Shown here: piece by piece, positions 2,136-64,000 of the stretch
Numbering within the stretch: position 1 is the first letter of the stretch
Layout of the letters: each line of letters opens with the position of its first letter
Source of the DNA: an uncultured Siphonobacter sp.
Lineage (GTDB): Bacteria; Bacteroidota; Bacteroidia; Cytophagales; Spirosomataceae
Assembly (NCBI GenBank): GCA_913775095.1
Contig: CAJYIW010000005.1
Span: 62,001 to 126,000 of the forward strand
Length of the DNA stretch: 64,000 bases
Direction of reading: 5' to 3'
The notes under the pieces: model-generated
What the model was told of the DNA's origin: nothing
Database searches by the model: none
Seen by the model: only the letters and a program-made list of their open reading frames with translations
Position numbers and translations under genes: made by a program

Positions 2136-2438
2136 TTAGGCAACAGAGGCCTCCCGTGGCGATCTTCTTTTCTTCACCGTCATTTTTACGGGTTCATTGT
2201 CAGGCGTGCTTTCGAACAGGAAGAAGGTATTACTGCAATGCCGACAGCGATAATACTTCAAAGCGACGAATCCAGCCAGTTTTTTAACCATATCAGGGCG
2301 GTTGGTTCGCTCAATGTGAATGGAAGTATGGCAACTTCGGCACTCGCACTTTCTTTGAATTTTGGACGCTGTCCAGACTAAAAAGATCAGGTAGCTTGCT
2401 ACTACTGCAATACTCGCGATAATAAAAATTCCAGTCAT
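2136..2438 (-). CDS. Small membrane protein with a zinc-ribbon-like cysteine cluster
   Basis: A 100-residue product starting MTGIFIIASIAVVAS, one N-terminal membrane helix, followed by a KCECRSCH cluster and a YRCRHC pair about 35 residues later, then a basic tail rich in Lys and Arg. The C-x2-C pairs suggest a zinc ribbon facing the cytoplasm. The frame can be extended upstream to 2621, but that extension crosses the terminator of the preceding gene and reads as unlikely protein, so the start at 2438 is preferred. I do not recognise the family and propose no function. Confidence 0.6.
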   Translation of the reverse strand: MTGIFIIASIAVVASYLIFLVWTASKIQRKCECRSCHTSIHIERTNRPDMVKKLAGFVALKYYRCRHCSNTFFLFESTPDNEPVKMTVKKRRSPREASVA

Positions 2439-2554
2439 AAGTTCATGAATCAAGTGGCTGATTAGCGGATTTCTCAAAAAAATTATTCTACAGAGTAGAA
2501 TAATTACGCCCAGCCACCCGCGACGGTTTGATTGATAGGACGAAAACAAAAAAA

Positions 2555-2588
2555 AACGCGACGAAATCGCAAAGGACGTCGTCGCGTT
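2555..2588 (-). terminator. Terminator of the NagB-LmbE gene
   Basis: A 9-bp GC-rich stem with arms AACGCGACG and CGTCGCGTT is followed, in minus orientation, by a long T-run. It lies just past the stop at 2609. Confidence 0.85.
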
Positions 2589-2608
2589 AACAAATATCAA
2601 CAATTTTA

Positions 2609-4549
2609 CTAATATTTCCAACGTACAAAAGCTTCCACAGCTTCATACTCGGCTAACCCCAGTTTGTTATATAAATTAGCCGTTGCCTGATTTCGGTCTT
2701 CTGCCCGTTGCCAGAATTCCCGTGAATCCGTTCCCTGGTAAACTACACCGTCTTTTTGTGACTGGTGTTTGAATATCCCGTGACGCTTCTTTAAGACCTG
2801 GTCAGGAGACATGGGCACCGCCATTTCAATCAGGTCGATAGCCCACTCATCCCAGGCTCCTTTGTACAGCCACACCCAGCAGTCTTTCATGAATTCTTCA
2901 TCTTTCAGACGGCGAACGGCTTCCATGACGGCATCCAGACACACTTTATGCGTTCCGTGGGGATCAGCCAGGTCACCCGCAGCGTAGATTTGATGAGGTT
3001 TAATCTCACGAATCAGATCCATCACAATCTGAATATCTTCTTCACTCAGTGGCTTTTTCTGTACCTTACCGGTTTCATAAAAAGGCATCTTCATGAAGTG
3101 AGCGTTTGCAACACCGTTACCGACGAAACGACAGGTTGCTTTGGCTTCGCCTTCCCGAATGATTCCTTTGACGTGACGTACTTCCGAGGTATCAACATCA
3201 GAATCTTTTTTCGTACGCAGGTGCTCGGCAGCCGTCTTGAAAATTTCTTCCGCCTTGGGACTGTCAATACCAAAGTGACGGTTGTAATCCACGACGAAAT
3301 CAATGAATCGCAGAGCTTCATCATCCGCAACGGCAATATTGCCTGAGGTTTGATACCCCACGTGGACGTCATGCCCCTGATCCACCAGACGCTGGAACGT
3401 ACCTCCCATGGAGATAATATCGTCATCCGGGTGCGGACTGAAAATCAGACAACGCTTTTGAGCGGGAAGAGCCCGTTCCGGACGGTTGGTATCGTCGGCG
3501 TTGGGTTTTCCACCGGGCCAGCCGGTAATGGTATGTTGTAATTGATTAAAGACTTCAATGTTAAGATCGTACGCCTGACCTACCTGAGCGAGCAATTCGG
3601 ACAGACCGTTGTCATTGTAATCCCGGTTGGTCAGTTTCAGAATGGGTTTGTTCAAAGAAAGAGCCAGGTGCGTAACGGCCTTCTTGGTCATGTTTTTATC
3701 CCAGGTTACTTCTTCTACCAGCCAGGGCATTTTACGGCGGGTTAGGTCCGCTGCGGCAGACTCATCCAGTACAAACTGTACGTTGGGATGTCCCTGCAGA
3801 TAACTGGCGGGAACCTGGTCAGTCACGGGGCCTTCGATCGCCTCGTGAATCATTTTAGCTTTGTGCTCACCCCAGGCCAGCAGAATAACCCGCTTGGCTT
3901 TCATGATCTGGTTGATCCCCAGGGTAATGGCCTTCTTGGGTACATTCGCCAGACCACCGAAATCCATGGCGGCGTCCGCACGGGTCGTCAAGTCAAGCGT
4001 CATTAAACGCGTGCGTGAATTCTCGTGAGAACCAGGCTCGTTGAAACCAATGTGACCGTTTCGGCCAATTCCTAACAATTGGAAATCCAGTCCGCCTAAT
4101 TCGTCAATCTGACGTTCGTAATTCTGACAGAATGCCGGAATCTGGGCGGGCGAGAGCGTTCCGTCGGGGATAAAGTAATTATTCTTGGGAATGTCCACGT
4201 GGTTGAACAGCTGTTCCTGCATGAAGCGAACGTAACTCTGCTGTCCATCGGGTTGCATGGGGTAATATTCATCGAGATTGAACGTAATCACATTGTAAAA
4301 GCTCAAACGCTCTTCGCGGTGAATACGAATCAATTCTGCGTACACTTTCTTGGGTGAAGAACCGGTTGCCAAACCCAACACTGCAGGTTTTCCCTGTAAT
4401 TGTTTGGCACGAATAATTTCGGCGATTTCACGAGCTACGGCCGCTGAAGCATCATTTGAATCGGCGTAAATCTGCGTAGGAATACGTTCAAATGCGATGG
4501 GCTGATTCAGCGTCGGAGCAGCTAATAACGTGTCTGTTTCGGGCAGCAT
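2609..4549 (-). CDS. nagB: Glucosamine-6-phosphate deaminase fused to a PIG-L/LmbE-like deacetylase domain
   Basis: 646 residues, more than twice the length of a plain NagB. Residues ~15-260 are the isomerase-fold deaminase, with GLATGSSP near the N-terminus, FNLDEYY, and GIGRNGHIGFNEPGS carrying the catalytic loop; this half converts glucosamine-6-P to fructose-6-P and ammonia. From ~360 on, FSPHPDDDIISMGG is the zinc-binding motif of LmbE/PIG-L N-acetylglucosaminyl deacetylases. The same fusion is common in Bacteroidota NagB proteins. The cytoplasmic product may pair deacetylation with deamination in amino-sugar use, but activity of the second half is inference. A -7 element at 4580-4587 overlaps an in-frame start at 4582, so the ATG at 4549 is chosen. 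No other nag genes are nearby. Confidence 0.92.
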   Translation of the reverse strand: MLPETDTLLAAPTLNQPIAFERIPTQIYADSNDASAAVAREIAEIIRAKQLQGKPAVLGLATGSSPKKVYAELIRIHREERLSFYNVITFNLDEYYPMQPDGQQSYVRFMQEQLFNHVDIPKNNYFIPDGTLSPAQIPAFCQNYERQIDELGGLDFQLLGIGRNGHIGFNEPGSHENSRTRLMTLDLTTRADAAMDFGGLANVPKKAITLGINQIMKAKRVILLAWGEHKAKMIHEAIEGPVTDQVPASYLQGHPNVQFVLDESAAADLTRRKMPWLVEEVTWDKNMTKKAVTHLALSLNKPILKLTNRDYNDNGLSELLAQVGQAYDLNIEVFNQLQHTITGWPGGKPNADDTNRPERALPAQKRCLIFSPHPDDDIISMGGTFQRLVDQGHDVHVGYQTSGNIAVADDEALRFIDFVVDYNRHFGIDSPKAEEIFKTAAEHLRTKKDSDVDTSEVRHVKGIIREGEAKATCRFVGNGVANAHFMKMPFYETGKVQKKPLSEEDIQIVMDLIREIKPHQIYAAGDLADPHGTHKVCLDAVMEAVRRLKDEEFMKDCWVWLYKGAWDEWAIDLIEMAVPMSPDQVLKKRHGIFKHQSQKDGVVYQGTDSREFWQRAEDRNQATANLYNKLGLAEYEAVEAFVRWKY

Positions 4550-39747: not shown

Positions 39748-39899
39748 GCGGATCACAGATCCGCGACAGACAGGTTCCGGATTGTAAATCCGGAACAGCA
39801 TAATTGTAAATCCGGAACAGCGTAAACCCTAAGAATTTACTTACGTATGCTCTTTCGGATTTTCAATCCGAAAGCCATCGGTCTGGGATTTATAATCCC
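39748..39899. repeat. Cluster of short palindromes with GGATT-NNN-AATCC core
   Basis: Four hairpins with 3-base loops: 39748-39764 (7-bp stem, loop ACA, core GGATC), 39775-39795 (9 bp, loop GTA), 39852-39874 (10 bp, loop TTC) and 39885-39899 (6 bp, loop TAT). Outer stem bases differ but stay paired. A 19-base piece of the second palindrome is repeated directly at 39803-39821, 22 bases after 39781-39799. The cluster fills the 373-bp gap between two genes and holds no reading frame. Confidence 0.7.
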
Positions 39900-62988: not shown

Positions 62989-62996
62989 GTTTATTT

Positions 62997-63039
62997 ATGA
63001 TAACTTCCCGAAAGGCTAAAGCTTTCGGGAAGTTATCAT
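62997..63039. terminator. Bidirectional terminator, 18-bp stem
   Basis: Perfect arms 62997-63014 and 63022-63039 around a 7-base loop, between the convergent iorB-like and RAYT genes. Its central TTCCCGAAAG sequence resembles the terminator at 39657-39689. Confidence 0.8.
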
Positions 63040-63053
63040 CATTTCTTCCGCCA

Positions 63054-63075
63054 TGGCTGGTGTCCTCACCAGCCA
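63054..63075. repeat. REP-like hairpin at the 3' side of the RAYT gene
   Basis: TGGCTGGTG-TCCT-CACCAGCCA, a 9-bp stem with a 4-base loop, 7 bp past the RAYT stop codon. It is the same hairpin type as in the array on the other side of the gene, and a GTAG tetranucleotide lies three bases after it on the plus strand. Confidence 0.75.
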
Positions 63076-63082
63076 TTCGTAG

Positions 63083-63604
63083 TTAAAAACGGTCCATGTA
63101 GTGAGTTAGGATTCCCCACTGATCTACCCCCTTTTCATAATAATGGGCTGAAGACCAAACATATTCTTCAGGATGCTTCGAGAGGTTCCAGTGTGCCTGT
63201 AATGGGTTTAAATGAATATACTGAAGCTTTTGTTCACACACAGCCCTAGTATACATATGGATAGCTAACGTATCTCTCTGCCAAAATTGATAACATCTAT
63301 CTCCTTTTTCGACCGAAAATTTTTCCAAAACTAATGGATGATTGATCCTTAGATCTGCCTGAAGTTGATGGGCAGTCCATTTAATGAAACTAGTGCTGGG
63401 TAATTCCTTTCCATTCATATCTAACATTTCCCAGATCAGATGCACATGATTAGGCATTATGACAAATCCATAAACTTTGATTTTTCTACGAAGAGTTAAA
63501 TTCATTAAACTGCTAATTATTAATTCTTTATACTTATCTGGCTTTAGAAGATGCTTCCAGTCTACAATACTTGCCGTCCAGAAATATACCTCATTTAAGT
63601 ACAT
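63083..63604 (-). CDS. REP-associated tyrosine transposase (RAYT, Y1/HUH)
   Basis: 173 residues from the ATG at 63604; a frame extension to 63655 adds a Ser/Arg-rich stretch and is less likely. VYGFVIMPNHVHLIWEM has the HUH pair His53 and His55, and EQKLQYIHLNPLQAHW gives the single catalytic Tyr129 in the YIHLNP context characteristic of RAYTs. There are no IS200/IS605 ends and no TnpB. RAYTs act on REP hairpins in single-stranded DNA; such hairpins flank this gene on both sides. All catalytic residues are present and the frame is intact. Confidence 0.88.
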   Translation of the reverse strand: MYLNEVYFWTASIVDWKHLLKPDKYKELIISSLMNLTLRRKIKVYGFVIMPNHVHLIWEMLDMNGKELPSTSFIKWTAHQLQADLRINHPLVLEKFSVEKGDRCYQFWQRDTLAIHMYTRAVCEQKLQYIHLNPLQAHWNLSKHPEEYVWSSAHYYEKGVDQWGILTHYMDRF

Positions 63605-63743
63605 GTTTGATTTTCTTTTCTCTGTGACTGAACGGCTACTATGTATGGTCATCATAAGGTCTGACTGATTAACTTCTCAATATATCGACATGATCCATTA
63701 GTACTTTTTACTTAATAGGATAGTTATCAAACGGTACTTACAT

Positions 63744-64000
63744 AAAAATGGCTGGTGGGGACACCAGCCACGGGAAGGCACGTTGACCTGCTACCATGGT
63801 TGGTGCCCTCACCAACCATCACTACTGTCATGACAAACCTTACCTCACTTCCACTAAAAATGGCTGGTGGAGACACCAGCCATGGGAAAACACATTAACC
63901 TGCTACCATGGTTGGTGTCCTCACCAACCATCACTACTGCTCATGACATAACCTTACCTCACTTCCAATAAAAATGGCTGGTGGAGACACCAGCCACGGG
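63744..64000 (+). repeat. Tandem array of ~112-bp units, each with two opposite REP-like hairpins
   Basis: Units start at 63744, 63856 and 63970 (lengths 112 and 114; the third is cut by the window). Each has hairpin A, TGGCTGGTG-GRGA-CACCAGCCA (63749-63770, 63861-63882, 63975-63996), and hairpin B, TGGTTGGTG-YCCT-CACCAACCA (63797-63818, 63909-63930), in opposite loop orientation. Linkers are also conserved (CCTGCTACCA, CATGACA, CTTACCTCACTTCCA). No reading frame is present. Bases 63656-63743 upstream hold only AT-rich sequence, probably including the RAYT promoter. Confidence 0.85.

Follow-up and report, generated by a model that had tools for sequence, protein, structure and literature searches.

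We found that a RAYT (REP-associated tyrosine transposase) gene near the end of a 64-kb stretch of Siphonobacter DNA (the window, 62001-126000 of contig C5 in genome G000, which comprises 5.65 Mb in 27 contigs) very probably forms a REPtron with the hairpins around it, that is, a Y1/HUH nuclease accompanied by hairpins that it most likely recognises. The hairpins are repeated, paired, tandemly amplified and seldom found in long open reading frames (ORFs), they co-occur with the window RAYT type above chance, and their stems covary. We infer that the RAYT mobilises them.

The features of the locus are listed in Table 1. The sequence-only reading had described an intact Y1/HUH protein with YIHLNP, and the RAYT frame is indeed open over its full length and encodes the HUH motif NHVH together with a single tyrosine in the YIHLNP context. 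The matching hairpin that had been placed 7 bp past the stop codon is present, but its distance from the stop is 6 bp. The protein matches the NCBIfam model NF047646 (REP_Tyr_transpos) with an E-value of 1.6e-16 and 60.5 bits, under the curated cut-off of 80, and no Pfam family at E 0.001; a profile made from the window RAYT and five relatives and searched to E 1 had TnpA-REP (4er8) as its only PDB match, a weak one (E 0.012). The genome holds one copy of this RAYT type, along with four other RAYT-like matches (E up to 0.01) that are 28-33% identical to it, one of them with an internal stop. Judged by its motifs and by the published description, the protein probably belongs to subclass 2.6 (Bertels group 5): according to PMC6006769, that group has in common with it the phylum, NH[LIV]H, WQ, YIH.NP and the C-terminal SS, and the subclass motifs fit except for the L of YIHLNP, where the subclass table gives YIH[QN]NP and thus expects Q or N. 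The HUH-Y spacing, counted by hand, is 74, compared with the usual 58-67 and a subclass 2.6 median of 82 in the same source, although the ways of measuring may differ. A long hairpin beyond the RAYT-proximal one is probably the terminator of the molybdopterin-type dehydrogenase gene.

Table 1. Features of the RAYT locus, in window positions
Feature	Position	Strand	Remarks
RAYT (REP-associated tyrosine transposase), 190 aa	63083..63655	-	NHVH, FWQRD, YIHLNP, C-terminal WSSA
REP hairpin 3' of RAYT stop	63051..63076	-	GGCTGGTG-AGGA-CACCAGCC, tail ATGGCGG
REP hairpin, GGC type, unit 1	63746..63771	+	
REP hairpin, GGT type, unit 1	63794..63819	-	one mismatch to oriented pattern, in loop
REP hairpin, GGC type, unit 2	63858..63883	+	
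REP hairpin, GGT type, unit 2	63906..63931	-	
REP hairpin, GGC type, unit 3	63972..63997	+	unit extends beyond window edge
Tandem array, 112-114-bp units	63743..64000, onward to ~L030 position 1607		3.3 units total
Long non-REP hairpin 3' of molybdopterin-type dehydrogenase gene	62995..63041		similar hairpin at G005 empty site

On the other side of the RAYT, head-to-tail units with two inverted hairpins each form an array, in which the hairpins inside the window alternate between the GGCTGGTG type on the plus strand and the GGTTGGTG type on the minus strand. What the sequence-only reading had said of this array is borne out: at least two and a half units of about 112 bp lie inside the window (hairpins at 63746-63972, spaced 112 and 114 bp), their linkers are conserved, with an 85-nt repeat 92% and a 51-nt repeat 96% identical from one unit to the next (the first 51-nt copy, at the array edge adjoining the RAYT, reaches only 65%), and the array runs on past the window edge (L030), where TRF gives a period of 112, 3.3 copies and 91% matches. 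The hairpins of the array are ordered +/- at 47-48 bp, which is the rarer arrangement, with -/+ steps of 64-66 bp between units. The array is followed by a diverged copy of the 3' end of the aldolase-like neighbour (77% over 223 bp) and by two more hairpins; the extra 3' end (L030 1609-1790) is bounded by hairpins, and G003, a relative, has this end in single copy. Tandem arrays with at least two perfect-core hairpins occur at 7 of the 30 RAYT loci scanned, including the window locus and its G003 counterpart. At another RAYT locus, L120, a tandem 147-bp duplication (1960-2254, 99%) takes in the RAYT gene's start, with N-terminus copies that begin at 2163 and 2016 on the minus strand, and a second duplication of 166 bp (1275-1606, 97%) overlaps the gene's other end. 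The copied gene start at L120 parallels the copied aldolase-like end at the window locus, and both arrays are read as tandem duplication with ends near hairpins, a process for which involvement of the RAYT is not required.

The hairpins flanking the RAYT are repeated elsewhere in the genome, as the earlier claim of a RAYT with hairpins of its own had demanded. Their self-complementary core has 95 exact sites genome-wide, 8 of which adjoin the RAYT, and the pattern read backwards has none, so the hairpins are not due to chance; the core with an NRGA loop is found at 45 forward and 44 reverse sites. We analysed 52 loci of this genome (107,285 bases), chosen for holding hairpin matches. With as many as two mismatches allowed, they contain 130 hairpins, including 76 exact ones, and their reversed sequence contains none. 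Neighbours within 60 bp of each other were ordered -/+ in 20 cases, +/- in six (three from the RAYT array), ++ in five and -- in three, and the -/+ pairs lay 30-47 bp apart, 19 of the 20 at 30-38 bp, which is the inverted arrangement at short recurrent spacing that characterises REPINs. In 129 hairpins, the 8-bp stem is preceded by T in 88% and followed by A at +1 (91%), G at +3 (81%) and G at +4 (89%). The GT[AG]G tag of canonical REPs is absent from this flank composition at the 5' foot of the hairpins and is not common to hairpin flanks at RAYT loci; GTAG occurs near some single copies. Having a consensus of their own and no GTAG tag, the hairpins are "BIME-like", as they had been called, by analogy only.

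TRF detected arrays with hairpins at 13 of the 52 loci, 12 of them having at least two hairpins, and the periods ranged from 52 to 172 bp. Tandem growth is thus characteristic of the hairpin family and is not confined to the RAYT site. Stop-to-stop ORFs (which are not curated genes) of at least 100, 150 and 200 codons contain 27, 7 and 2 of the 130 hairpins; for random positions within these 52 loci, the proportions are 75, 64 and 56%.

Two other hairpin families occur in the genome. One, TTTCGGATT-NNN-AATCCGAAA, has 39 genome sites and is represented in the window at 39853-39873, with a 2-mismatch copy at 39775; it flanks another RAYT (L026). The other, TCCGCGTT-NNN-AACGCGGA, has 22 sites, of which 4 adjoin the L027 RAYT (G000:C13; L027 1133-1359 and 2050-2072). 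Since the RAYTs of L026 and L027 have hairpin families of their own, at least three RAYT/hairpin sets are present in one genome.

Among six genomes of the genus, the oriented pattern has 89 sites in G000, 112 in G003, 3 in G005 and none in G004, G001 or G002. RAYT matches at 1e-30 were obtained in G000, in G003 (two open frames, at 85 and 80% identity), in G004 (50%) and in G005 (49%); the two genomes without such a match, G001 and G002, are among those with no site, and the ~50% identical RAYT of G004 and G005 is accompanied by another kind of hairpin, whose loop is long (13 nt in L032). The sequence-only reading had asked for the flanking hairpins at orthologous RAYTs and for copy-number change among related strains. 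The orthologous RAYT of G003 is flanked by the same hairpins as that of the window (related ones flank RAYTs of other genera), and its array, which adjoins the same deformylase-like and aldolase-like genes, has 2.3 units versus 3.3, a change seen between two species. A frameshift, either genuine or due to a sequencing error, breaks the G003 RAYT (L086 2356-2921), yet this genome keeps its 112 hairpins; the gene lies near a contig end, and past it the similarity to the window is soon lost.

In G005, the aldolase-like and dehydrogenase genes adjoin and the cassette is absent, with ~1.29 kb missing: in the alignment, 2141 to 3431 of G000 (reverse strand of L030) corresponds to 2541 to 2545 of G005. 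Both G000 breakpoints fall within hairpins and hairpin-like DNA remains at the G005 join, a configuration explained equally well by insertion of a REP-bounded cassette and by its loss through hairpin recombination. G005 carries its ~50% identical RAYT elsewhere, and it alone is informative on the empty site, because the neighbouring gene differs in G001, G002 and G004.

A common hairpin plan accompanies these RAYTs beyond the genus. We scanned up to 1.5 kb on each side of 32 RAYT loci, including that of the window, for perfect 7-bp stems and found the plan NNNNGTG-loop-CACNNNN at 26 of them, at 21 on both sides; its first letter is usually G, and in L113 and L115 the loop is closed by GAG/CTC. 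Imperfect or long-loop versions in L032, L033, L096, L100 and L118 (the long-loop hairpins of L032 and L033 were found by eye after the first scan had missed both) bring the plan to 31 of 32 loci, L126 being the only one with no plan hairpin in the RAYT flanks. Of 25 RAYT-flanking hairpins, 21 have GG as bases 4 and 5 beyond the 7-bp stem (for L108 and L117 the tail was taken from the second-nearest hairpin, and GG is present either way).

The loops divide along the RAYT tree, with NRGA or the 3-nt RGA in one part, and NNAA in another, to which Ekhidna (L127) belongs; two rows within the NRGA part have GCA. On a tree with 31 rows, of which 25 carry a label (the broken or short ORFs of L102, L118 and L119 were excluded), the three loop labels require 2 changes, the minimum possible, versus a shuffled mean of 7.5, with 0 of 200 shuffles as low, a type of test that near-copies inflate and that, like the Fisher and binomial tests, ignores kinship. 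The labels were assigned by hand, the hairpins of L096 and L100 are imperfect, and that of L112 lies 939 bp from the gene; L032 and L033, unlabelled in the tree, fall outside the NRGA clade and have a loop ending in AAA. The stem middle also tends to follow the enzyme: half-stem and RAYT distances are correlated in the full set of 25 rows (r 0.51, a value reached in none of 10,000 permutations; Mantel test on the hairpin nearest the gene, leaving aside L031, L096, L100, L102, L118, L119 and L126) and inside the NRGA/GCA clade (r 0.44, 17 rows, 63 of 10,000 as high), but they show no agreement inside the NNAA clade (r -0.25, 8 rows). More distant RAYTs come with other loops, CTCA (also CTTA) in G183 and G198 (L134, L135) and, among L137, L138, L139, L141 and L144, GCA in the L137/L138 kind, and the loop looks specific to the RAYT type there as well.

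We then counted hairpins across 222 family genomes with a first family-wide pattern, GGNNNGTGNRGACACNNNCC, in which the three middle pairs need not match. It has 779 sites in 79 of the genomes, against 16 for the reversed control, and it is too narrow: requiring GG and an NRGA loop, it overlooks hairpins with 3-nt, NNAA or long loops. The 33 genomes with a RAYT at 1e-30 have a mean of 13.7 sites and the 189 without one a mean of 1.7; at least 2 sites occur in 22 of 33 versus 33 of 189 (Fisher 2.9e-8) and at least 5 in 15 of 33 versus 16 of 189, both comparisons being uncorrected for kinship. Stem pairing is kept rather than letters, though many copies are imperfect. Among the matches listed, 60 of 97 distinct genome-hairpin combinations pair perfectly, whereas shuffling the 3' triplets yields 11.7 on average and at most 23, and the perfect stems contain 14 different triplets; this set of 115 rows extends to genome G160, skips within-genome repeats and misses three distinct rows, two of them perfect. 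In G198, among the 100 of 119 sites listed, 72 hairpins are perfect and display 11 triplets, and 20 of 43 distinct sequences pair perfectly versus a shuffle mean of 4.2 and a maximum of 12.

RAYT and hairpin counts part company in both directions. Fewer than 2 pattern sites were found in 11 of the 33 RAYT genomes; in eight of these (G004, G054, G081, G085, G089, G122, G126, G217) the flanking hairpin misfits the pattern, and in G101 the flanking hairpin is imperfect; RAYT flanks were covered for these nine genomes, the other two of the 11 being G074 and G093. Conversely, the 16 family genomes with at least 5 hairpins and no RAYT at 1e-30, two of which fall short of the completeness filter, yielded at 1e-6 only distant RAYTs in eight (13 matches, 27-35% identity, best E 1.3e-16) and no RAYT in the other eight; no GTG-closed hairpin was found at the 13 distant RAYT loci. 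G198 (L145-L150), a one-contig genome, has 119 NRGA hairpins; the 100 sites listed include 15 -/+ pairs spaced 41-59 bp apart, and no matching-clade RAYT was found in the genome: these hairpins are an apparent orphan population. Hairpins without a close RAYT may be left-over populations, as PMC3733652 records E. coli strains that have lost REPtrons; alternatively, another RAYT may serve them.

Could the hairpins be ordinary terminators or RNA-stabilising elements that gather near genes, with the RAYT as an incidental neighbour? Their stems fold well alone, few of them lie in long ORFs, and of the 103 that fall outside ORFs of at least 100 codons, 45 sit between convergent ORFs, all as terminators would, but we consider this very unlikely: near-identical sequence at 95 sites, conserved unpaired flanks and inverted pairing would be unexpected, as would the presence of the hairpins beside RAYTs of several genera, the flank consensus contains no T-run, and a separate hairpin of another kind belongs to the nearby dehydrogenase gene. 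An IS200/IS605-type insertion sequence, autonomous and ending in hairpins, would bring an enzyme of the same superfamily as the RAYT and could be missing as a unit, as the cassette is in G005 with both breakpoints in hairpins. However, it is very unlikely in view of a gene that has not multiplied, with one copy of the RAYT type in the genome and, among the 33 family genomes matched at 1e-30, 27 that have a single match, and of about a hundred hairpins nearly all of which lack a gene; the only solved structure matched, weakly, is moreover TnpA-REP.

A further alternative concerns the array, which slippage during replication or unequal recombination may have expanded like any other tandem repeat, without any part played by the RAYT. 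The unit number that varies between species, the gene ends caught in duplications at the window locus and at L120, and the arrays away from the RAYT all fit it. As a full explanation it is unlikely, though it deserves weight, as it explains the array but not the dispersal, the inverted pairing or the RAYT-hairpin agreement, and for all else it is compatible with the REPtron reading.

The REPs of Pseudomonas fluorescens SBW25 are GTAG-tagged. The array had been thought to set the locus apart from proteobacterial systems, a view we abandon: SBW25 has tandem REPIN clusters with copied flanks, and a distinct cluster beside each of three RAYTs (PMC3116915), and the window array is therefore not new in kind. 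SBW25 REPINs resemble the window hairpins in their inverted REP pairs, tandem clusters and copied flanks, and differ from them in RAYT group and REP sequence (PMC3116915). Tandem repetition of REP clusters along with adjacent DNA is reported to be more widespread in PMC3733652, which also describes TIRtrons, whose RAYT-flanking repeats lack GTAG like the window hairpins; GGGGACAC in some of our hairpins fits the TIRtron motif GGGGWSAS, a comparison by motif only.

PMC6006769 describes Bacteroidetes RAYTs of subclass 2.6 as having, on their flanks, structures that lack GT[AG]G and recur elsewhere in the genome; these are called atypical and weaker, whereas the window hairpins have 8-10-bp stems and a clear consensus. 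E. coli TnpA-REP with its REP (4er8) is likewise a Y1/HUH nuclease with its own REP, but that REP needs GTAG and a bulged stem, whereas the window hairpins have perfect stems, a conserved loop and no GTAG; group 3 enzymes, for which loop reading and strand-specific recognition are published, are closer in strategy to the window system than E. coli TnpA-REP is (PMC8266576). The REPtron kind being already known, what we add is the hairpin consensus, the covariation and the agreement with the RAYT clade. None of the titles and abstracts listed in our literature searches gave a consensus for such Bacteroidota REPs.

For the REPtron, we envisage that the hairpin would fold when the DNA is single-stranded, probably on the lagging-strand template, and that the RAYT would read the loop, the loop-closing GTG/CAC pairs and the GG at fixed distance, which would be CC on the opposite strand, at the place of GTAG in proteobacterial REPs. 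The enzyme would then cut and pass the strand, and inverted pairs (REPINs) would spread between genes. Head-to-tail arrays may grow by tandem duplication of the DNA between hairpins, including pieces of neighbouring genes, in a step of slippage or recombination that would not necessarily involve the RAYT. We tentatively propose, at somewhat less than an even chance, that Bacteroidota RAYTs of the group of the window RAYT read a two-part hairpin code in place of GTAG, in which loop and closing pairs would be fixed by clade and the paired stem middle would drift with the RAYT, with CC at fixed distance on the processed strand as a guide. This proposal is made less likely by the absence of stem-RAYT agreement within the NNAA clade. 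If it is true, the two further RAYT types of the genome with their own hairpins would be orthogonal systems side by side.

The work on REP recognition described in PMC8266576 uses GTAG-tagged proteobacterial REPs. A GTAG-less Bacteroidota consensus gives ready enzyme-hairpin pairs for testing how REP recognition evolves. The hairpin genomes without a close RAYT, together with a genus in which the cassette is intact, broken or absent, bear on the fate of a REP population after loss of its enzyme.
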